Source of the DNA: a virus
Length of the DNA: 59,986 nt
IMG/VR virus record: IMGVR_UViG_3300020474_000013
Span: 1-59,986 of that record
Direction: 5' to 3' (one strand)
Made by a program: the position numbers and the translations under genes. Numbering within the stretch: the stretch's first letter is position 1; each line of letters opens with the position of its first letter. A model generated the notes under the pieces. The model did not search any database. It was not told the DNA's origin and saw only the letters and a program-made list of their open reading frames with translations. Below are positions 41,263 through 56,081 of the stretch, piece by piece.

Positions 41263-41742
41263 CTATTGTTTGTTAAGTAATGCTTCTATTCGCTCTTCAA
41301 TATCCGCTTCAACTTCATCGCTTGTTCTTGCTTCTTTGGTTTCAACAACATCACTAAACAGCGATACACTTTTACCTAGCAATTCCAATGCTCGAATCCT
41401 AGCTGAATCTGAATCTGATTCTTTGGACTCACGATACAGTTGGTCTATGACATAGTTTCTTGTTCTGAGACTACTAGCAACTGCTGACTGCTCTTTACGT
41501 TCAATAGCCCTTTGTATGCTTATTGCTATCTTAGGGTTTGCAACTAAACGACTTGCTTCTACTTCTACCCACTTGGGAATCTTCCCTTGCTTAGTTAGAG
41601 CGACATCATAAACCTTTGCATATGCTTCTTTATAACTACCCAACTTGCCCTTGATAATTTCATCCACGAACTGCCTTTGCTTTATCGTTAATTCAATTTC
41701 TTTTTTGACTACTTTCAGATTTGGTTTTTCATCTTCGCTCAT
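41263..41742 (-). CDS. terS: Terminase small subunit
   Basis: The protein has 159 residues. The N-terminal helix-turn-helix region (LTIKQRQFVDEIIKGKLGSYKEAYAKVY) followed by NPKIAISIQRAIERKEQ is the Terminase_2-type DNA-binding pattern, and the acidic C-terminal coil (TSDEVEADIEERIEALL) would oligomerise the ring. It selects the phage DNA and regulates the large subunit. It reads towards the terL gene but is separated from it by the G-run gap. Confidence 0.8.
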   Translation of the reverse strand: MSEDEKPNLKVVKKEIELTIKQRQFVDEIIKGKLGSYKEAYAKVYDVALTKQGKIPKWVEVEASRLVANPKIAISIQRAIERKEQSAVASSLRTRNYVIDQLYRESKESDSDSARIRALELLGKSVSLFSDVVETKEARTSDEVEADIEERIEALLNKQ

Positions 41743-42174
41743 ACTGAAATCTTATCTCAGATATGAAGAAAATATAATGCTCACAAAACGATAGCAAAAA
41801 TGGTGGACTGGTAAATAATTAATATAATGTTTGAAATGATGTTCAATCTATGCATAATGTTCTTAACAAAGACAAAAAAGGAGAAACATTTATTAGACAA
41901 ATTTAAGCAACTACCAAGAAGCAGTATCACATTATTAATATACGAACTTGGTTGAGGGTCTCAAGAATTGCCCTCGTAGATAGAGAGAAGCTACATAACA
42001 AATATGCGTACCATTAGAAGTACTGAAAGACCTCGATATAGGTTGAAACAAAAGTACAGATGCGGAGACGATAATTTCCAGTTGCGACTACTCCAATAGT
42101 CTCTGAATTAACAGACTGATGAGCATCCTAATTATGGGGTGCAAGAAACTAATATATTCTTGGAGGAATTAATT
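41743..42174. other. Divergent gap between small terminase and early block
   Basis: I see no gene in these 432 bases. They hold a GACTGGTAAATA element at 41806-41817, a string of short hairpins at about 41,950-42,090 (for example GAGGG/CCCTC, GTAG/CTAC, GTAC/GTAC, ACCT/AGGT), and a hammerhead-like fold before the AAA ATPase gene. A long structured 5' leader for the early transcript is likely. Confidence 0.6.
42097..42151 (+). ncRNA. Hammerhead ribozyme-like fold, degenerate copy (copy 0)
   Basis: The order is stem III TAGT (42097-42100), C17 at 42101 (a classical GUC cleavage triplet), stem I TCTG/CAGA, core CTGATGA (42116-42122), stem II GCATCC/GGGGTGC-type, then GAA (42145-42147) and ACTA. 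Two extra A residues between stem II and GAA break the consensus, and stem III is only 4 bp. It sits 23 bases before the ATG, as the good copies do, so it is either a variant or a decayed ribozyme. Confidence 0.5.
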
Positions 42175-43239
42175 ATGTTTAAACCAAGTGAAGCAAAAAC
42201 TTCATGCCTACATATTTTGAAAGGGAGTAATATTCCTTTTTTAATTGGTGGTACTGGAGTTGGAAAATCCGCAATAGTTAAAGAGATTGCGGAAGAACTA
42301 GCAAACGATAGAACTCTTACTGATTCAGTAAGTCCTAAAGATGATGAATTTGGATTCATATCTTTTAGACTTGGGTTAGTAGAATCTATTGATTTGGGAG
42401 GGTTGCCTTATATTGAAGAGGGAACTCAAAAGAAAGCATTTTTAGGCAACTTGCCTAGAAGTGGAAAGGGTCTATTTTTTCTTGATGAATTTGCACAAGC
42501 ACATTCAAGCGTTCAAGCAACGATAGGACAATTACTCGACCCAAAAGGAAAAAACGAAGAGCGAAGAATTGGCGATTATGTTTTTCCTAGTGGGTGGAAA
42601 ATTGTCTTAGCGGGAAATAGACATACTGATAGAAGCGGAGCAAATAAAATACTTAGGCATTGTCAAGATAGGACTACTGCTATTCAGTTTACTCACGATG
42701 TTGAGGACTGGTTAGCGTGGGCTGATAACAACGACATTGACTTGAATGTTCAAGGTCTAATTAGATTTATGCCACAGCTACTATGGGACTTTGACCCTAA
42801 ATGCAACGACCCACAGCCAAGCCCAAGAAGTTGGGTAAGGTTAAGCGATACTTTGAAAACTGACCCGCCAAAACGATTGATGCAAAAATTGTTTGAGGGC
42901 GATGTTGGACAAGAATCCGCTATTGAATTGATGAACTTTATCTCACTTCAAAATGATGTTCCAAACATATCTGATATATGTAAAGGAAAAGATGTTGAAG
43001 TTGTAGATGATGCGGGTCTTTGCTATGCGACAACGATTGCATTAACAACTGCAATTAACGGAGCGAATGATAACGATGTTTATGATTTCTTTGAAAATGC
43101 TTTGAACTATTTGAAGCAACTTTCAACTGTAGAATTTTCTATATTCTTTGTTAGAAAAATTACTGGACTTAGAAACGAACTCAAAGAGTGCGATGTATAT
43201 TCTAAGTTTAAAATTGATAACCAAGATTTAGAAATCTAA
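42175..43239 (+). CDS. MoxR/CobS-type AAA+ ATPase
   Basis: The protein has 354 residues. It has Walker A GGTGVGKS (25-32), Walker B FFLDEFAQA (101-109), sensor 1 AGNRHTD (146-152) and an arginine-finger-like RHCQDR (161-166). MoxR-type ATPases work with VWA-domain proteins as metal-insertion or remodelling chaperones. One with a metallopeptidase and VWA domain is encoded two genes on. I chose ATG 42175 because TTGGAGGAATT precedes it; the longer frame from 42139 would begin inside the hammerhead-like fold. It is the first gene of the early plus-strand block. Confidence 0.85.
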   Translation: MFKPSEAKTSCLHILKGSNIPFLIGGTGVGKSAIVKEIAEELANDRTLTDSVSPKDDEFGFISFRLGLVESIDLGGLPYIEEGTQKKAFLGNLPRSGKGLFFLDEFAQAHSSVQATIGQLLDPKGKNEERRIGDYVFPSGWKIVLAGNRHTDRSGANKILRHCQDRTTAIQFTHDVEDWLAWADNNDIDLNVQGLIRFMPQLLWDFDPKCNDPQPSPRSWVRLSDTLKTDPPKRLMQKLFEGDVGQESAIELMNFISLQNDVPNISDICKGKDVEVVDDAGLCYATTIALTTAINGANDNDVYDFFENALNYLKQLSTVEFSIFFVRKITGLRNELKECDVYSKFKIDNQDLEI

Positions 43240-43248
43240 ACTCACGAA

Positions 43249-43295
43249 GCGACAAGGGAATATTTATTATTGACTGGTAAATATTCCTTTTCCGC
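43249..43295 (+). promoter_or_regulatory. Long intergenic hairpin with operator-like element
   Basis: GCG and AAGGGAATATTTA at 43249-43266 pair with TAAATATTCCTTTTCCGC (43278-43295), the loop holding GACTGG. The half-element GACTGGTAAATA is part of it. It stands between the ATPase stop and a hammerhead ribozyme. It may slow or terminate transcription or protect the cleaved 3' end of the upstream message. Confidence 0.6.
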
Positions 43296-43297
43296 TC

Positions 43298-43354
43298 ATT
43301 CTGATATTGGGATGTGTATCCCAACTGATGATTCAAAAATGATGAAATCAGAAT
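43298..43354 (+). ncRNA. Type III hammerhead ribozyme (copy A)
   Basis: Stem III is ATTCTGAT (43298-43305) with ATCAGAAT (43347-43354), 8 perfect pairs. The cleavage residue is A43306. Stem I is TTGGGAT/ATCCCAA (7 pairs, loop GTGT). The core is CTGATGA (43325-43331). Stem II is TCA/TGA after a T-T mismatch, and GAA (43344-43346) follows. Cleavage after A43306 would leave the downstream message beginning with stem I. The next gene starts 30 bases further. Confidence 0.85.
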
Positions 43355-43384
43355 TTTATAAATAAATTCTTGGAGGAATTAATT

Positions 43385-44362
43385 ATGAAAAAAGATAATG
43401 CAAATACTTTATCTGAAAATGCAACTTTGGTGCGACTTACAACGAAGCATCCAAGCGGTATTAAATCAGATAAGGATTTAAAAGAGGGTCTAGCAATAGA
43501 CCAAAAAGCAAACAACGATTCACTTCACGTTGCGAAGTATATCTTTGGTAGGGAAGCAAATAGATATTTCAGAAGAATTATCAATCAGTTTAGGAATAAT
43601 TATTTTTATCCCTTAACTGTCCCTTGGGATGATAATACTAGCGACTTTGAGGGTAAAGTTTTAAGTGGGTGGCGATTATGTCCAAACCAAGAACTTGATA
43701 GGCTCATGGATAAAGTGAACGATGCTAAGGTTGACTTCCAAAAGGAAGTAAATTCATTTCTTGATAATTACGATAATTTAATTGAATGGAATAAACACAG
43801 ACTTGGCGATGCTTTTAAGTTGTCTGATTATCCTAAAAAAGAAGTGATAGAAACTAAGTTTAGATTTGATTTTGAACTTGGTACTGTCCCACAATTTAAC
43901 AGTAAGGATATTCGTTTAAATGTATCTGAGAAACTTCGCAAGAAGATTGAAAGCGATGCATTAAAAAGAGCAACTAAAAATATTGAAGCAATAACACGAA
44001 CTACTGTTGAAACTCTTTTGGAATCTGTAGAACATTTAGCTGACAAGCTAGAGTCTTATGACCCAAAAACAAAAGGTGGTGGATTCTTTAAGAATTCTAC
44101 TTTTGATAAGTTAAGACAAACTTTAGATACGCTTCCAAGTATCAATTCTGACATTCTAGGGAATGACAAAAAGATAGCGGAAGCACATCAAAATTTAGTT
44201 AGTGTCTTTGCAAAAATAAATGATGTTAATTCACTTCGTGATGATGATGATTATACGGACAAGAAGCGAAAGCAACTTGCGGATGATTTGAAAGATAGCG
44301 TTAGTGATTTGGCGGATGATATGAAAGGCGGATTTTTAGATTCAATGTATTCTAAAAAGTAA
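43385..44362 (+). CDS. DUF3150-like protein
   Basis: The protein has 325 residues. The PLTVPWDDN...GWRLCPNQELDRLMDKV region, followed by helical EWNKHRLGDAFKLSDYP and FRFDFELGTVP, matches what I recall of DUF3150 proteins, which accompany MoxR-type ATPase and VWA genes in phages. The second half is helical coiled coil. ATG 43385 has the identical CTTGGAGGAATTAATT leader to the ATPase gene. The biochemical role is unknown; it may be the adaptor of a three-part complex. Confidence 0.65.
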   Translation: MKKDNANTLSENATLVRLTTKHPSGIKSDKDLKEGLAIDQKANNDSLHVAKYIFGREANRYFRRIINQFRNNYFYPLTVPWDDNTSDFEGKVLSGWRLCPNQELDRLMDKVNDAKVDFQKEVNSFLDNYDNLIEWNKHRLGDAFKLSDYPKKEVIETKFRFDFELGTVPQFNSKDIRLNVSEKLRKKIESDALKRATKNIEAITRTTVETLLESVEHLADKLESYDPKTKGGGFFKNSTFDKLRQTLDTLPSINSDILGNDKKIAEAHQNLVSVFAKINDVNSLRDDDDYTDKKRKQLADDLKDSVSDLADDMKGGFLDSMYSKK

Positions 44363-44374
44363 GCAAATGACTGG

Positions 44375-44413
44375 GCGGGGAAAAACTATTTACCAGTAAA
44401 TATTTTTCTTCGC
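44375..44413 (+). promoter_or_regulatory. Intergenic hairpin containing the complete palindrome
   Basis: GCGGGGAAAAA pairs with TTTTTCTTCGC (two G-T pairs) and encloses TATTTACCAGTAAATA (44387-44402), a perfect palindrome except for the central CA. A run of T follows, so it can serve as a terminator. The same element occurs upstream and downstream in other gaps. Confidence 0.65.
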
Positions 44414-44420
44414 TCCTTTT

Positions 44421-44475
44421 TTTCTGTATTGCAATGTGTATTGCAACTGATGATTAGGAAACTATGAAACAGAAA
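44421..44475 (+). ncRNA. Type III hammerhead ribozyme (copy B)
   Basis: Stem III is TTTCTGT (44421-44427) with ACAGAAA (44469-44475). Cleavage is at A44428. Stem I is TTGCAAT/ATTGCAA (loop GTGT). The core is CTGATGA (44447-44453). Stem II is TAG/CTA with a GAAA loop and the same T-T mismatch, followed by GAA (44466-44468). Stems differ from copy A yet still pair, which is covariation. The ATG of the next gene is 31 bases on. Confidence 0.88.
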
Positions 44476-44506
44476 CTCATAAATAAAATTCTTGGAGGAA
44501 TTAATT

Positions 44507-45865
44507 ATGTTAAATAGTGAAGAGCGAATAATTAAAGCTAGAGCGAAACTTATGAAAGGTAATATTGGTATGGCTACCATGCTACTAAAACTTACTTTGA
44601 TTGAGGATAATGAGCGATGCCAAACTATGGCTACAGACGGAATTAATATTTATTGGAATGATGAATTTGTTAAATCAATATCAGATGAAGAAATCCAAAC
44701 AGTATTAATTCACGAAGCAAGTCATGTCATATGGGAACATCCAATTAGAAAAGGTAAACGAATTCACGAACTTTGGAACATAGCTACTGACTATGTAATT
44801 AACTCTTGGATAGCATACGATTTAGGTATGCAACTTCCCGAGGGTGGACTACTTGATAGGCAGTATCATAGACAAAGTGCAGAACAAGTTTATAGAACTT
44901 TATCTAATGATGATGAAGCCCTAGATGATGCCCTTGAACAATTAGAATCTAATTCAGATGATGATGATGATTCTGATTCTCAAAATGGCGGTGGCGATTC
45001 TGATTCAGATTCTGATGCAGATGCAGATGATTCTGATTCTCAAAGTGGCGATTCAGATGCTACTGGAAATGGACAAGGTAAATCTCTTGAAGAGAAACTT
45101 GCTGATGTCAAATTACCAAGTGGCGAAGTTTGGATGCCAACTAATGAAAATGGACAAGAACTATCGCCTACTGAAATGGCTGAACTACAAGAGGAACTTC
45201 AAAGAACAATATCAATGGCTGATAAGCTAGATACTATTGGAGAAAACCCTACTGGTGGTTTTGGTAAAGCTATGGAACAACTAAACGAAAGTTATGTTGA
45301 CTGGGTAGATGTAATGCGAGATTTATTGCAAAGCGTTTACTCTGATAATCCTACTTGGACAAGATTAAATAAAAGACATTCTTGGAGGGGGGTTAATTTA
45401 CCTAGCAGAGACAAAGAGCCACAAGGCGGAGAACTCGTAGTTGCTATTGATACAAGCGGAAGTGTTTCACAAGAAGAACTAAATGTTTTTGCAACTGAAA
45501 TCAATTCCCTAGCGGAAGAGTGTGGTATCAATAAAATTAGAGTTTGTTATTGTGATACTACTGTCCACAAAAACTCAAAAGGCGAATGGTGGGATGAATA
45601 CGACTTGGATTGTGAAGAGTTGGAACTTGTCTCTCGTGGCGGTGGCGGAACTTATTTTGACCCGCCTTTCAACTTGTACAACGACTACACAGAAGATACA
45701 GATGAAGTAGTAGCATTTATCTACTTTACAGATGGGTATGGCGAGTGTAGTGCAGAAGTTGAGCCCGATGTTCCAGTAATATGGGCATTGAGTGGTGGCG
45801 AAAATAGGTGGAGCAATGAACTTCCTTTTGGGGAAAAAGTTGCTATAGATTTCTCTAGTCTTTAA
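44507..45865 (+). CDS. DUF2201-like metallopeptidase and VWA-domain protein
   Basis: The protein has 452 residues. Residues about 1-130 are the putative metallopeptidase domain with HEASH (69-73, the HExxH pattern). A Ser/Asp-rich linker follows (150-190, largely DSDSD runs). The C-terminal VWA-like domain has the metal-ion-dependent adhesion motif DTSGS (315-319) and YFTDGYGE. CobT-like and DUF2201 proteins of this build are the partner of MoxR/CobS ATPases. Here the ATPase is two genes upstream. Its substrate is not known. Starts at ATG 44507 behind CTTGGAGGAATT. Confidence 0.82.
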   Translation: MLNSEERIIKARAKLMKGNIGMATMLLKLTLIEDNERCQTMATDGINIYWNDEFVKSISDEEIQTVLIHEASHVIWEHPIRKGKRIHELWNIATDYVINSWIAYDLGMQLPEGGLLDRQYHRQSAEQVYRTLSNDDEALDDALEQLESNSDDDDDSDSQNGGGDSDSDSDADADDSDSQSGDSDATGNGQGKSLEEKLADVKLPSGEVWMPTNENGQELSPTEMAELQEELQRTISMADKLDTIGENPTGGFGKAMEQLNESYVDWVDVMRDLLQSVYSDNPTWTRLNKRHSWRGVNLPSRDKEPQGGELVVAIDTSGSVSQEELNVFATEINSLAEECGINKIRVCYCDTTVHKNSKGEWWDEYDLDCEELELVSRGGGGTYFDPPFNLYNDYTEDTDEVVAFIYFTDGYGECSAEVEPDVPVIWALSGGENRWSNELPFGEKVAIDFSSL

Positions 45866-45877
45866 TCGCAAATTGGT

Positions 45878-45920
45878 GTGGAGGAAAAAGTATTTACCAG
45901 TAAATATTTTTTCTTCCCGC
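45878..45920 (+). promoter_or_regulatory. Intergenic hairpin containing the complete palindrome
   Basis: GTGG and GAGGAAAAA pair with TTTTTTCTTCCCGC around TATTTACCAGTAAATA (45891-45906), with one bulge. It is the third copy of the hairpin-plus-ribozyme cassette, again directly behind a stop codon. Confidence 0.6.
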
Positions 45921-45926
45921 ATCAAA

Positions 45927-45983
45927 TTTCTAATATCAAGATGTGTATCTTGGCTGATGATTCTGAAAAGATGAAATTAGAAA
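45927..45983 (+). ncRNA. Type III hammerhead ribozyme (copy C)
   Basis: Stem III is TTTCTAAT (45927-45934) with ATTAGAAA (45976-45983), 8 pairs. Cleavage is at A45935. Stem I is TCAAGAT/ATCTTGG (one G-T, loop GTGT). The core is CTGATGA (45954-45960). Stem II is TCT/AGA with loop GAAA, and GAA is 45973-45975. The following ATG is 32 bases away at 46016. Confidence 0.87.
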
Positions 45984-46015
45984 CTTAAAAACTGTCCTTG
46001 GAGGGACATATAATT

Positions 46016-46849
46016 ATGCAAAATAATAATTATAAAAACGAGTGTTCTCCAGTTAGTACCCATGTTTCAGATGAAACTAAAACATGGTTAGATAACATGA
46101 AGAATAAATATAGTATTGATATTTCAACACAACTTTTTTATGTTGTTTCAAAGATGATTAAATCTGAAAAGCAATTAGAGAAAGTTGTAGTTGCCAGTCT
46201 ACTAGATGACCATGAGAGCAAGGGTAATACTTTGCGAGAAATGGCTAGTGAATTGGGTATTAAAGTCAATGTTAATGTAGCTGATAAAATTGCATCAAGA
46301 ATGGTGCCAGTTGTAAATGCTAATGTTGTTGATGTTTTTTCTAAACACAAAAAAACTGGTGTTGAAACAGCTAACATGATTAACGAATGTTTGGACAAAA
46401 ATTCAGATGTTAATACTGTAATGAAATCTAAGTTAGAGGAAGTTGTTTCTCAATCTAATGTGCAAGTTAAAACAGTTGATGAAATTGACTGGCAGAGATT
46501 AGCAAATTGGAAGTACAAAGACTTAGATATTCTTGGTGTATCCTTTGAAAATTATTCTATTCTTAAAGAAGATAATATCAAAAAAGGATTCAAGAATGGA
46601 TTGTATGCAACTTTGCATAGTCAAGCGTTAGGATTGTGGCGTGATGAAGAAAAGGAATTATCCATAAGGGATATTGCGAAACTTCAGCCCTATCAAACTC
46701 CAACTGGAGATTTTAGGATTCTTACAATTCAAACGATTGTTAAGAGACTTATCAAAGCTATTGTGCATTTTGGAACGGGAGAAGAGAAGCAATTACTCTT
46801 TGGAACTTTCCAAGTTTATCCGCATAAGGCTAAGAAAAAGTCTGTCTAA
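46016..46849 (+). CDS. Unknown early protein
   Basis: The protein has 277 residues and no family I recognise. The first 130 residues are helical and the rest mixed (WKYKDLDILGVSFENYSILK, GLYATLHSQALGLWRDEEKELSIRDIAK). It belongs to the ribozyme-punctuated block with the MoxR complex, so it could be part of the same pathway. The ATG at 46016 follows CTTGGAGGGACAT. No membrane helix or signal peptide is present. Confidence 0.6.
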   Translation: MQNNNYKNECSPVSTHVSDETKTWLDNMKNKYSIDISTQLFYVVSKMIKSEKQLEKVVVASLLDDHESKGNTLREMASELGIKVNVNVADKIASRMVPVVNANVVDVFSKHKKTGVETANMINECLDKNSDVNTVMKSKLEEVVSQSNVQVKTVDEIDWQRLANWKYKDLDILGVSFENYSILKEDNIKKGFKNGLYATLHSQALGLWRDEEKELSIRDIAKLQPYQTPTGDFRILTIQTIVKRLIKAIVHFGTGEEKQLLFGTFQVYPHKAKKKSV

Positions 46850-47024
46850 GAAATTAGTGCAACAAAAACAATAGACCAGTAAATATTTTTTGATTCGCTG
46901 GGAAGGTTGTGGTTGCCGTATTTTTTTCTGATGCAATATGAGAGTGGGTTTTTTGGGGTATCTTAGACCCTTAACCTACTCTCAATTTTGCAATAGGCGA
47001 AGTCTCACGAAGTCAATTTTGCCA
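46850..47024 (+). promoter_or_regulatory. Leader with half-element and long hairpin
   Basis: The element GACCAGTAAATATTTTT lies at 46874-46890. Bases about 46,933-46,997 form a long hairpin: TGCAA and TGAGAGTGGG pair with CCTACTCTCA and TTGCA. This gap is longer than the other ribozyme leaders and the hairpin is extra. It may be a transcriptional pause or a control on the ribozyme downstream. Confidence 0.5.
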
Positions 47025-47083
47025 AAACTGTATAGAAAATGCGTATTTTCTACTGATGATTGCCTAAAGGCATGAAACAGTTT
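47025..47083 (+). ncRNA. Type III hammerhead ribozyme (copy D)
   Basis: Stem III is AAACTGT (47025-47031) with ACAGTTT (47077-47083). Cleavage is at A47032. Stem I is TAGAAAAT/ATTTTCTA (8 pairs, loop GCGT). The core is CTGATGA (47053-47059). Stem II is TGCC/GGCA with loop TAAA after the T-T mismatch, and GAA is 47074-47076. All stems differ in sequence from copies A-C but still pair. The ATG is 34 bases on. Confidence 0.88.
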
Positions 47084-47117
47084 ATTAAACTTAACTGCCC
47101 TTGGAGGGGTAATTATT

Positions 47118-47369
47118 ATGAAAAACGAAAAAGAATATACAATATGTTTAACGACAAATTGTTCATATGAATATAAAGTAAAAGCTAAAGATAGGAACGA
47201 AGCTATAATTAAAGCTAAAGAAGATTTAATATCTGATTTACAAAATAAAACCAATGACATTGTAAAATCTCAATGGTATGTATGCGATGTTGATACTAAT
47301 TTAGATGATGATGAGTTTGTTCTTACCCATAGTTTTGGAACATTAAAAGGTATGGGGGGTTTAGAATGA
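47118..47369 (+). CDS. Small unknown early protein
   Basis: The protein has 83 residues. Its opening (EYTICLTTNCSYEYKVKAKDRNEAIIKAKEDL) looks like a small beta-alpha domain of the kind used in single-strand or protein binding. It overlaps the next gene by 4 bases. It has a strong GGAGGGG leader behind ribozyme copy D. No function is known. Confidence 0.6.
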   Translation: MKNEKEYTICLTTNCSYEYKVKAKDRNEAIIKAKEDLISDLQNKTNDIVKSQWYVCDVDTNLDDDEFVLTHSFGTLKGMGGLE

Positions 47370-47632
47370 CTAATCGAGAACTATTAGAATTTACTTTGAA
47401 AGTAAACATAGGAACTTGCAACGAAATCTATACAAAGATTAATAGGGAACTAGAACAAAAATCAGATATTGATATGGCTCTAGTTAAATATTTTAATACT
47501 TTGGTTTCAATCAATCATAAAGTGCAAGATGTTTTATATAAGGAAAGGGAAAACTTAAACATCCCTAACCCAAAACATTTTGGATTTACAACTAATGATG
47601 AGATTGTAGAAGTTGAAGTGCAAGAACTGTAA
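47366..47632 (+). CDS. Small helical early protein
   Basis: The protein has 88 residues, mainly helical with an acidic Val-rich end (DEIVEVEVQEL). It overlaps the previous gene by 4 bases, so the two are coupled. It ends the early block, and a rho-independent terminator lies 7 bases after its stop. No family recognised. Confidence 0.55.
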   Translation: MTNRELLEFTLKVNIGTCNEIYTKINRELEQKSDIDMALVKYFNTLVSINHKVQDVLYKERENLNIPNPKHFGFTTNDEIVEVEVQEL

Positions 47633-47638
47633 ACAAAT

Positions 47639-47684
47639 TAAGGCGGTATGCTACTGTAAAAGGTAGTGTACCGCCTTTTTTTTT
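47639..47684 (+). terminator. Rho-independent terminator of the early ribozyme block
   Basis: AAGGCGGTA plus CTAC pair with GTAG plus TACCGCCTT in an 8-base-loop hairpin with nearly complete pairing, followed by nine T residues. It lies directly behind the last gene of the block. Confidence 0.92.
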
Positions 47685-47829
47685 GGTCTAAAAAAAGTGG
47701 ATATACGCAGGATAACTGGGATGGTAATAAAAAATATTTACTGGTATATTGTTTTTTCTGGTGTTGTTTGGGGTGGGGTAATGTTAGATGAGATGACAAA
47801 AAATAAAATATATTTACTGGTTTTCAAGC

Positions 47830-47861
47830 TGTGGATAACTTTGTGGAAAACCTGTAGATAA
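47830..47861. promoter_or_regulatory. DnaA-box-like sequences
   Basis: TGTGGATAA at 47830-47838 is the reverse complement of the DnaA consensus TTATCCACA. TGTAGATAA at 47853-47861 differs by one base. Two boxes in 32 bp beside AT-rich DNA and repeats are what a host-DnaA-dependent origin needs, though single boxes also occur by chance. Confidence 0.45.
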
Positions 47862-47981
47862 CCCTTGCAATTTGCTATCAATTACATTATATTAATGGAA
47901 CTAATATTTGATTGCATAAGATTTTTAGTTTTCCTAAATGCAACTTTCATATATTAACCTCCAAGCTTATTATTAAGTTTA

Positions 47982-48015
47982 AAAGGGATAGTCGTAAGAT
48001 TGTCCCTTTTTTTTT
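47982..48015 (+). terminator. Rho-independent terminator
   Basis: AAAGGGATAGTC, a GTAA loop and GATTGTCCCTTT form a 12-bp stem with two G-T pairs, followed by a run of nine or more T. There is no gene just upstream on the plus strand, so it may end a small RNA or isolate the 48.3-kb gene from read-through. Confidence 0.85.
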
Positions 48016-48242
48016 GGTAGTCGGTTGATAGTCTATGATAGGCGACACACCACCAAGTCTCCAACAGAAAAATCCCAGACTGGTAAATATTTTTTATCCT
48101 GAAATCACAGAGATGATAGAAACCTGTAGTGTTTAATAATACAGCAGTAGGGGTGATGAGGCGTTGTAAAACAATAGACTGGTAAATATTTTATTTTTGT
48201 CAGGAAAAACTACTGGTCTAGGAAACACAGCAGTAGGGTAAA

Positions 48243-48258
48243 TGTTCCACGTGGAACA
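48243..48258. promoter_or_regulatory. parS-like ParB-binding palindrome
   Basis: TGTTCCACGTGGAACA is a perfect 16-bp palindrome matching the bacterial parS consensus (TGTTNCACGTGNAACA), a form I associate with alphaproteobacterial chromosomes. It is the only copy I see. No phage parA or parB gene is recognisable. It lies about 45 bp before the 48304 gene and its -10 box. Confidence 0.85.
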
Positions 48259-48289
48259 ATATGTATTTCACTTTGATAGCATTTTGCAG

Positions 48290-48295
48290 TATAAT
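48290..48295 (+). promoter_or_regulatory. TATAAT -10 box of a leaderless gene
   Basis: A perfect TATAAT ends 8 bases before the ATG at 48304, so transcription should start within about 3 bases of the codon. No Shine-Dalgarno sequence exists. The -35 is weak (TTTCAC with an 18-base spacer). The context TTTTGCAGTATAATAA matches the promoter at 22380. Confidence 0.5.
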
Positions 48296-48303
48296 AATTG
48301 CTT

Positions 48304-48618
48304 ATGTATGCGGTAATAAGACACACATATCATTTAGATATACCCGAGCCAAGCAATGTTTATTCAACTAAATCTAGTGCTAAATGGAAACATTTTGTAT
48401 GGATATTTGAAACTGAACTAGATGCTCTTGCCTTTGCCATATCACTTTTAGATGACCCTTTGATTATGTCTAATAAATGGTTGATTGAAAGTGCCATAAA
48501 GCAATTAGAAGAAGATAGGTATTATCAAGTTGGTAGAGAGTCTGTAGCTATTGCAGAAGTGCAAGATAGTCCGCAAGTTATTTATGAGGATGATAAAAAT
48601 GAAAAGTCTATTCATTAG
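48304..48618 (+). CDS. Unknown early protein, probably leaderless
   Basis: The protein has 104 residues. It begins MYAVIRHTYHLDIPEPSNVYSTKSSAKWKHFVWIFE, followed by a helix (ELDALAFAISLLDD) and an acidic tail. I recognise no family. I take ATG 48304 and not the TTG at 48298, since the -10 box lies 8 bases before it. It is the first gene after the parS-like site and overlaps the Arc-like gene. Confidence 0.6.
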   Translation: MYAVIRHTYHLDIPEPSNVYSTKSSAKWKHFVWIFETELDALAFAISLLDDPLIMSNKWLIESAIKQLEEDRYYQVGRESVAIAEVQDSPQVIYEDDKNEKSIH

Positions 48619-48856
48619 ATGTTCAGAAGAAACCTACGAATTGGCACATTCCTTAGCTAAGAAAGAAAGTCGTTCACTAAACAAGCAAATTATTCATATG
48701 ATTCATAGTGAAGCTGACAAGAAAGATATTGAGGTAGAAGATAAACCTAGCGTTGCACAAAATGGTACAACATTACATCAATCTGAAACTACTTTTGAAT
48801 CTAAACTTGGCTTACAAGGGATTGTTGAAACAAGGAAACAGGATTCTTCTGACTAA
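48599..48856 (+). CDS. Arc-like ribbon-helix-helix regulator
   Basis: The protein has 85 residues. Residues 1-42 fit a ribbon-helix-helix fold: an N-terminal strand MKSLFIRCSEE, helix YELAHSLAKKES and helix LNKQIIHMIHSEA. The rest is acidic and flexible. ATG 48599 has a GAGG site 8 bases upstream and the fold begins there; the frame start at 48551 would lie inside the previous gene. It is a candidate to bind the palindromic TATTTACCAGTAAATA elements. Its end overlaps the opposite-strand gene by 56 bases. Confidence 0.65.
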   Translation: MKSLFIRCSEETYELAHSLAKKESRSLNKQIIHMIHSEADKKDIEVEDKPSVAQNGTTLHQSETTFESKLGLQGIVETRKQDSSD

Positions 48857-49340
48857 TATACCAAAAAGTTAGTAGTGCATTAGAACATTGTTGCATTACT
48901 AACTCCTTTGTTTCGCATATCTCTTTAGGATTATCTATCATAATCTTCCAAAAAACCTTTTCTTTATTGTGTCCACAATCATTCACTAACTTTTTCTGTA
49001 TTCTTGAAAGCATGACTGCCTTTGGTGGAGGCTGATTAAATCTATGACTGGTAAATATTTCTTTTCCCATCCCAGAAGCTCTCCCCAAAGCTCCACTTTT
49101 TGCTATTAATTCAAGGTATTTATTACAGACATTGTGTTGCTCTGCTGTAATTTTTTGCTGTAAGAAAGATTTATCTATGATGTGTTGGTCAAACACGATT
49201 GCCCTACCAACCTTGCTTTTACCTATTTTGGTTATTGCAACTTGGTTTCTGAAATGTAGATAAGGACTTCCTATATCATTAACTTGTAATGTTTCAGAAC
49301 TCCCAGTCAAAGTTATCTTCAACTTCTTCAATTTCTGCAT
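48801..49340 (-). CDS. Unknown protein next to the primase-helicase
   Basis: The protein has 179 residues, helical in the second half (AEQHNVCNKYLELIAKSGALGRASGMG and an AVMLSRIQKKLVN segment). It may be a small DNA-binding or replication accessory protein; DUF6456 is a weak possibility. It overlaps the helicase gene by 47 bases and the opposite regulator by 56. A copy of GACTGGTAAATATT lies within it at 49046, so the element occurs in coding DNA. Confidence 0.5.
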   Translation of the reverse strand: MQKLKKLKITLTGSSETLQVNDIGSPYLHFRNQVAITKIGKSKVGRAIVFDQHIIDKSFLQQKITAEQHNVCNKYLELIAKSGALGRASGMGKEIFTSHRFNQPPPKAVMLSRIQKKLVNDCGHNKEKVFWKIMIDNPKEICETKELVMQQCSNALLTFWYISQKNPVSLFQQSLVSQV

Positions 49341-55681: not shown

Positions 55682-56081
55682 TTTACCCTTAGAGGTTTAC
55701 TACACAAAGAATAAGAAGTTTATCCTTAACTTAAACAACTATCGTAATGCCCATTACAGAATACTATCTAATGCCAAGAAGATTTATGCAGACAATTTAG
55801 TTGATAGGATTAGTTATCCTACATATAAAGAGCCTGTTGTATTAATTTACACCTACTACGCAAAAAGCAGGAGAAGATTAGATGTGAGTAATCCTTGTTC
55901 TATTATTGACAAGTTTACTTGCGATGCTTTGGTAAAAGCGGGAGTCTTAGAGGATGATAGTAGTAAACAAATTAAACAAGTTATTTACAAATATGGGGGG
56001 ATTGATAAAAACAATCCTAGATGTGAGCTTGAAATCGCAGCGTCCCAGCAGCAAAAGAAATATTTACCAGTCAATGGTTAA
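55671..56081 (+). CDS. RusA-like Holliday junction resolvase
   Basis: The protein has 136 residues. RRRLDVSNPCSIIDKFTCDALVKAGVLEDD carries the acidic active-site residues (D71, with D80 and E94/D95) of the RusA family, which cuts four-way junctions. The N-terminal strand set (PLEVYYTKNKKFILNLNNYRNAHY) matches as well. It completes the recombination block with the exonuclease, annealing protein and Ref-like protein. Confidence 0.8.
   Translation: MKIDLPLEVYYTKNKKFILNLNNYRNAHYRILSNAKKIYADNLVDRISYPTYKEPVVLIYTYYAKSRRRLDVSNPCSIIDKFTCDALVKAGVLEDDSSKQIKQVIYKYGGIDKNNPRCELEIAASQQQKKYLPVNG

Follow-up and report, generated by a model that had tools for sequence, protein, structure and literature searches.

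The window, i.e. the whole stretch of 59,986 bases analysed here, is a record of an uncultured tailed phage whose terminase has its nearest relatives (58-60% identity) in one Pelagibacter phage and two environmental phages; a BLASTN search against isolated phages gave no match. It carries an operon of six genes (42175-47632) that encode a MoxR-like AAA ATPase, a DUF3150 protein, a DUF2201 metallopeptidase/VWA protein, one protein of unknown function and two small proteins (Table 1). No supporting evidence was found for describing this operon as early, as an initial sequence-only reading had done. The last two genes overlap and have no ribozyme between them, and the gaps that carry ribozymes span about 144-268 nt, versus a median of -1 nt for the structural genes of the same window (in this calculation, the start of gene 3 was placed at 44498, the actual ATG being at 44507). 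Strong terminators called near the operon, at 47640-47677 and 47981-48010, all lie at or beyond its end. The element of the putative transcript start region recurs inside the operon.

Related loci were gathered with the metallopeptidase protein, giving 36 loci, mostly at 60-90% identity. Furthermore, isolates were picked for terminase, MoxR or metallopeptidase similarity. Since ribozyme copies are absent from those chosen in this way (HTVC027P, HTVC023P, 023Pt_psg01, DSL-LC04, CRP-7, Mae-Yong1326-1, S-TIM5 and SBP1), no cultured carrier was found among them.

Table 1. Features of the operon and its leader (HHR, hammerhead ribozyme; SD, Shine-Dalgarno)
Feature	Coordinates	Strand	Support
Putative operon transcript start region, GACTGGTAAATAATTAATATAATG, with TATAAT at 41823-41828	41806..41829	+	sequence; weak
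Leader hairpin GACTA-CTCCAA-TAGTC, loop 42091-42096	42086..42101	+	CTCCAA-loop hairpin scan; kept in relatives
Element E, HHR-like core before first gene, predicted cut after C42101	42094..42154	+	RF00008 21.7 bits
SD hairpin of gene 1, loop TTGGAG	42156..42169	+	hexaloop scan
Gene 1, MoxR-like AAA ATPase	42175..43239	+	Pfam AAA_5; phrog_1297 E=5.6e-61
Hairpin upstream of HHR A (prospective 3' end of gene 1 message)	43255..43289	+	sequence; class statistics
Type III HHR copy A, predicted cut after A43306	43298..43354	+	covariance model 85.6 bits
SD hairpin of gene 2, AATTC-TTGGAG-GAATT	43365..43380	+	hexaloop scan
Gene 2, DUF3150 protein	43385..44362	+	PF11348 E=4.9e-8
Hairpin upstream of HHR B	44380..44408	+	sequence; class statistics
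Type III HHR copy B, predicted cut after A44428	44421..44475	+	covariance model 81.2 bits
SD hairpin of gene 3, AATTC-TTGGAG-GAATT	44487..44502	+	hexaloop scan
Gene 3, DUF2201 metallopeptidase-like / VWA-like	44507..45865	+	PF13203 E=1.1e-29, PF09967 E=2e-17
Hairpin upstream of HHR C	45880..45917	+	sequence; class statistics
Type III HHR copy C, predicted cut after A45935	45927..45983	+	covariance model 79.2 bits
SD hairpin of gene 4, TGTCC-TTGGAG-GGACA	45993..46008	+	hexaloop scan
Gene 4, protein of unknown function	46016..46849	+	no Pfam/PHROG match
Structured stretch in the longer fourth gap, GAGAGTGGG...CCTACTCTC, away from HHR D	46940..46983	+	sequence
Type III HHR copy D, predicted cut after A47032	47025..47083	+	covariance model 43.9 bits
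SD hairpin of gene 5, TGCCC-TTGGAG-GGGTA	47096..47111	+	hexaloop scan
Gene 5, small protein	47118..47369	+	overlaps gene 6 (47366-47632)
Strong intrinsic terminator at operon end, 16-pair stem then T-run	47640..47677	+	terminator scan

Hammerhead copies and the variant family

Genes 2-5 are each preceded by a gap that contains one complete type III HHR fold on the + strand (copies A-D), exactly where the sequence-only reading had placed it and with the same H17 residues (Table 1). All copies show the same order of elements, i.e. stem III, H17 (an A), stem I, CTGATGA, stem II, GAA and A15.1, and form a three-helix junction with an open stem III and loop-closed stems I and II, as expected for type III. 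The distance from the end of stem III to the ATG is 30, 31, 32 and 34 nt for A, B, C and D, respectively. Furthermore, all four begin stem II with a U10.1-U11.1 mismatch, so that helix II is limited to 3-5 bp plus the mismatch. This mismatch and the short helix could slow cleavage.

A covariance model built from relatives and window copies A-C found A-D in the window (43.9-85.6 bits) and no other match. The Rfam hammerhead models, which the sequence-only reading had proposed as a check, gave no hit for A-D at E<=10; run on the entire window and on the region, they called a single HHR, element E, below threshold, and ten related loci gave no match at gathering score. Minimum free energy folding slightly favours a rival pairing in copy A (-14.0 vs -12.9 kcal/mol) and copy C (-9.6 vs -8.6 kcal/mol). 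Folded one by one, A-D do not stand out (z -0.7 to -1.3), so the case depends on comparison.

A type III pattern gave 91 matches in the window and the 36 related loci, versus 0.2 per Markov-shuffled set. Since this pattern presupposes the core, we added a search for the three-way-junction geometry alone, in which the core letters were not imposed. Among its 147 hits, CTGANGA/GAA occurs in 79, which are 79 of the 80 core-like hits. The 16.1-15.1 pair, not imposed either, is U-A in all 80, and H17, equally free, is A in 69, C in 10, T in one and never G. All 80 lie on the coding strand, and N7 varies (T57, C16, A5, G2). Hence, known HHR rules emerge from this search without having been imposed. 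The catalytic positions (C3, G5, A6, G8, A9, G12, A13, A14, U16.1-A15.1 and H17) rarely change, whereas N7 and the stems are variable.

The stems had been described as differing between copies but still pairing, and compensatory changes among relatives bear this out for all three of them. In the clade (37 distinct homologues), stem I is 100% paired, with six of seven pairs changed on both sides, and the covariation score is 0.633, versus 0.227 for shuffled and at most 0.122 for slid alignments. A wide alignment that reaches more distant phages, and which is fitted to the model, has 98 distinct rows with 95.5% of cells paired, double changes in 16 of 17 pairs and a score of 0.862 (0.228 shuffled, at most 0.091 slid). 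Chance is excluded as the source of A-D. Core, covariation and spread across phages support the assignment of these copies to HHR-type ribozymes, which would be self-cleaving.

These copies belong to a variant characterized by U10.1·U11.1, a short helix II, a UGUGUA loop I and a loop II that is mostly AAAA or GAAA. The first pair of helix II is U-U in 65 of the 80 core-like hits, G-C in 11 and C-U in four; U10.1-U11.1 is the best tolerated mispair in natural HHRs (PMC3088659). The variant scores under the Rfam thresholds and is detected by covariance model R1. A DNA pattern scan yielded 81 further matches in 59 additional loci; as it fixes some letters, base frequencies are biased there, and claims about letters rest on the geometry-only search. 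The variant occurs in dozens of IMG/VR phages. At threshold, 42 of 44 IMG/VR contigs have copies, and multiple copies are mostly clustered when whole records are considered, with, for example, seven in one record (G021/L107) and eight in a MAG contig (L184). That the variant escapes the tested Rfam models suggests that viromes contain more ribozymes of this kind than have been counted.

Gap cassettes and leader

The ribozymes come one per gap, in sense orientation and coupled to a hairpin and an SD cassette, as the sequence-only reading had noticed. A same-strand ribosome binding site and ORF start follow 190 of 211 copies, nearly all at 15-39 nt past stem III (in this set loci overlap and the copies are not all independent). 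Three phages that have no SD (L055, L057 and L113) keep the start codon at a similar distance. On the upstream side, a hairpin precedes roughly two thirds of the copies (with z<-2 at 37 of 55 non-redundant ones), and the upstream stretches of these 55 have a median of -15.3 kcal/mol, versus -7.6 in controls. In many phages, this hairpin is GC-rich, adjoins stem III and has no U-run. Copy D has no adjacent hairpin. The structured stretch of the fourth gap has similar counterparts in relatives.

The SDs themselves are presented in hairpin loops. The window contains exactly five hairpins with a TTGGAG hexaloop (0.27 expected), and these are the ribosome binding sites of five operon genes. It also contains exactly one hairpin with a CTCCAA loop (0.455 expected), located in the leader, whose loop is the exact reverse complement of the SD loops. 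The SD stems differ and nevertheless pair: over 25 distinct arm pairs, 106 of 125 positions are paired, versus 73 after shuffling (maximum 89 in 2,000 shuffles). The main clade keeps CTCCAA/TTGGAG. In two divergent relatives (L077 and L082), both loops have shifted register together: the leader reads CCTCCA and most SD loops read TGGAGG. The leader hairpin is absent from L037, L039 and L095. From these sequence patterns, translation of the five-gene set is probably co-regulated by loop-loop pairing, a proposal that is less certain than processing. Regulatory kissing is something that we infer, since independent changes are scarce and a G-rich loop is expected of any SD.

Moreover, the leader contains an HHR-like core, element E (CTGANGAG), composed of C17 (42101), CTGATGA (42116-42122), stem II GCATCC/GGGTGC, an AA insertion and GAA. 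Searched over 441 bases, it reaches 21.7 bits with Rfam Hammerhead_3 (RF00008; E=0.035), where the threshold is 48.5 bits; Rfam found no other family on the leaders of the window and of one related locus (L009). In relatives, stem I covaries in three of four pairs and N7 is variable, which indicates that the core is under HHR-like constraint. However, an invariant AA insertion precedes GAA, which thus does not directly follow helix II, and stem III has just three invariant bp, a fourth pair being formed in 8 of 15 sequences. Because of these two deviations, we call E HHR-like and not a hammerhead. Its predicted cut lies at the 3' foot of the leader hairpin, and its stem III overlaps the 3' arm of that hairpin. 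The sequence-only reading was right about the four HHR copies but missed element E, the SD hairpins and the anti-SD hairpin.

Proposed processing of the operon transcript

Our preferred reading, to which we give a probability of about 0.8, is that the gaps are RNA-processing cassettes that would cut a polycistron into monocistronic mRNAs. This figure applies to processing and not to loop-loop regulation. A single transcript would start upstream of 42086 and end at the operon terminator. During transcription of each gap, the type III hammerhead would fold and cut itself after H17. According to established HHR chemistry, the upstream message would then end with the gap hairpin and a short tail bearing a 2',3'-cyclic phosphate, while the downstream message would have a 5'-OH, then stems I and II as two small hairpins, and its own start codon 15-39 nt after them. 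The outcome would be single-gene mRNAs with structured ends, whose stability and translation may be set gene by gene. Five of these messages would show their SD in a UUGGAG loop and the leader would offer a CUCCAA loop, which may allow loop-loop control.

A more tentative extension, which we consider somewhat less probable than its contrary, is a self-processing RNA regulon. Element E would cut after C42101 and release a leader RNA of roughly 270 nt with the CUCCAA hairpin at its 3' end. This RNA would kiss the SD loops of the five separated messages in trans, or in cis before cutting, and so jointly set their translation. Since the leader hairpin shares its 3' arm with stem III of E, folding of the hairpin and cutting would then be mutually exclusive states of a switch.

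It is unlikely that the upstream hairpins are intrinsic terminators and that the HHRs trim the 5' leaders of read-through or local transcripts, each gene having RACYRGTAAATATTTT as promoter. T-runs do follow some hairpins (L037 and L039), and the gaps as well as the operon start contain RACYRGTAAATATTTT, which has 26 matches in the window versus 4.5 expected. However, the terminator scan calls no gap hairpin upstream of a ribozyme in the window but calls a strong one at the operon end, and a scan of the window for sigma-70-like promoters showed no enrichment over shuffles. In four loci (L107, L074, L098 and L099), the gap hairpins are GC-rich, have neither RACYRGTAAATATTTT nor a U-tract and adjoin the HHR, which leaves no room for a start site between them. 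Together, the hairpin statistics and the location of the terminators favour a cut polycistron over serial terminators and promoters. We also considered RACYRGTAAATATTTT as promoter of each gene and rejected it as unneeded, since other phages have unrelated GC-rich hairpins instead.

The junctions might otherwise be HHR-derived switches, kept as ligand- or protein-controlled elements of 5' leaders, with residual or lost cleavage. The non-canonical 10.1-11.1 mismatch, the conserved loops I and II and the location in 5' leaders near the start codon would fit such switches, but the near-complete retention of every catalytic position with N7 and stems free, the absence of an aptamer-like conserved insert and the diversity of this one fold, with about fifty sequence variants within the clade and other gene contexts elsewhere, make them very improbable. 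Repeated insertion of a mobile or circular RNA element (retrozyme-like) in the operon can be rejected: copies are alike and clustered, and HHRs are known as parts of retrozymes and circular RNAs in other systems (PMC6155905), but element boundaries beyond the gap are absent, orientation and start-codon distance are consistent, and orthologous gaps of genomes whose proteins differ by 10-40% keep corresponding copies, which they share by descent.

Under the processing reading, a regular, conserved and repeated architecture found in many phage lineages makes the hypothesis testable gap by gap, partly in existing metatranscriptomes.

Comparison with known systems

Copies A-D resemble the type III HHR of the sTRSV type (RF00008) in their open stem III, their core CUGANGA/GAA and their NUH cleavage site, and presumably also in a UGUG-like loop I that faces a loop II ending in A. 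They differ from it by U10.1-U11.1, which replaces G-C in most copies, by a short helix II and by sub-threshold scores.

Ribozyme punctuation, which the sequence-only reading held to be undescribed, is not a new idea, since processing into single-gene messages was already proposed by Perreault et al. in 2011 for clustered phage HHRs that flank single genes or short blocks (PMC3088659). Their clusters are those of the C. scindens and A. caulinodans prophages and the ardA cluster of A. tumefaciens; tandem HHRs in native polycistronic transcripts of about 2 kb cleave in vitro, and one tandem arrangement was also examined in E. coli (PMC3088659). These authors also noted natural U10.1-U11.1 mismatches (PMC3088659). 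The operon described here is similar in having several HHRs per phage transcript around single genes, with the same mismatches. In contrast, the identities of the flanked genes are not constant in their clusters (PMC3088659), whereas here one cassette, often made up of hairpin, HHR and SD leader, occupies each gap and is conserved in the clade; the operon also differs by a variant that Rfam does not call, an HHR-like element in the leader and the set of SD and anti-SD hairpins. What is new here is the regularity, the cassette and the variant family.

The HHphage of haloviruses HF1/HF2 likewise lies just upstream of the start codon of a viral gene, 13 nt before that of a gene heading a polycistron, and a mapped 5' end falls within three nt of the cleavage site (PMC3088659). 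It differs from our copies in being a single copy before one gene, with an insertion at positions 2a/2b, in an archaeal virus. The role of phage and bacterial hammerheads is still called open (PMC6155905, PMC10085705).

The leader/SD-loop system is genuinely unusual. Its closest known analogue is RNAIII of S. aureus, in which C-rich UCCC hairpin loops pair with the SDs of several mRNAs and, for coa and rot, make loop-loop contacts at the ribosome binding site (PMC3861533). Here, the leader CTCCAA is similarly complementary to five TTGGAG SD loops. Unlike in RNAIII, this anti-SD hairpin, recognized by sequence, sits on the operon's own leader, immediately 5' of a predicted ribozyme cut, and in a phage. 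If functional, the loop set would let RNA alone regulate an operon whose transcript is already divided into separate messages.

Non-coding regions in and around the operon

Upstream of the hammerhead-like element that precedes the first gene (element E), the operon leader is kept in relatives as at least two exchangeable sequence versions. A search of this leader and that of a relative (L009) against Rfam returned no family beyond the weak match of element E. The leader is a possible new structured RNA. The gap between genes 4 and 5, which harbors ribozyme copy D, is longer (268 nt) than the other ribozyme gaps and includes a separate structured stretch that has similar counterparts in relatives (GGGTATCTTA.GCCCTTA.CCTACTCTTA). 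Beyond the operon end, a gene-poor stretch carries two strong terminators (at 47640 and 47981) and several copies of the ACTGGTAAATATT element, and is a candidate regulatory or origin region.

Furthermore, a 16-bp RACYRGTAAATATTTT-like element that includes a partial palindrome (TTTACYRGTAAA) has 26 matches in the window versus 4.5 expected (up to 3 mismatches). Its copies cluster near the operon, and it may act as an operator, a promoter part or a hairpin arm.

Non-coding features of the window
Feature	Position	Remark
Non-coding leader, ~430 nt	41742-42175	flanked by divergent genes
Fourth gap, with structured stretch	46849-47025	sequence and relatives
Long gene-poor stretch	47632-48800	
RACYRGTAAATATTTT-like 16-bp element	41806-49061 and 56057-56072	mismatch search

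Annotation of the third gene

The protein encoded at 44507-45865 is named 'HNH endonuclease' in PHROG (phrog_1314), whereas Pfam finds metallopeptidase-like and VWA-like domains. The two are in conflict, and the PHROG name is likely an inherited misannotation.

The ribozyme family in other phages and contigs

The hammerhead variant of this operon is also found in contigs binned into bacterial MAGs, including Patescibacteria (L184, L134, L148, L157, L161, L163, L165), with up to eight copies per contig; these are possibly phage or prophage sequences. In some phages (L055, L057, L069, L113, L114, L120), the leaders carrying ribozyme copies are A-rich and devoid of Shine-Dalgarno sequence, and the ribozyme-to-ATG distance stays similar. 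Moreover, in unrelated phages (L068, L085, L098, L074, L093), ribozymes of this family also precede AAA ATPase and CobT/VWA-like genes. This suggests that hammerhead cassettes are recurrently linked to MoxR/VWA modules.
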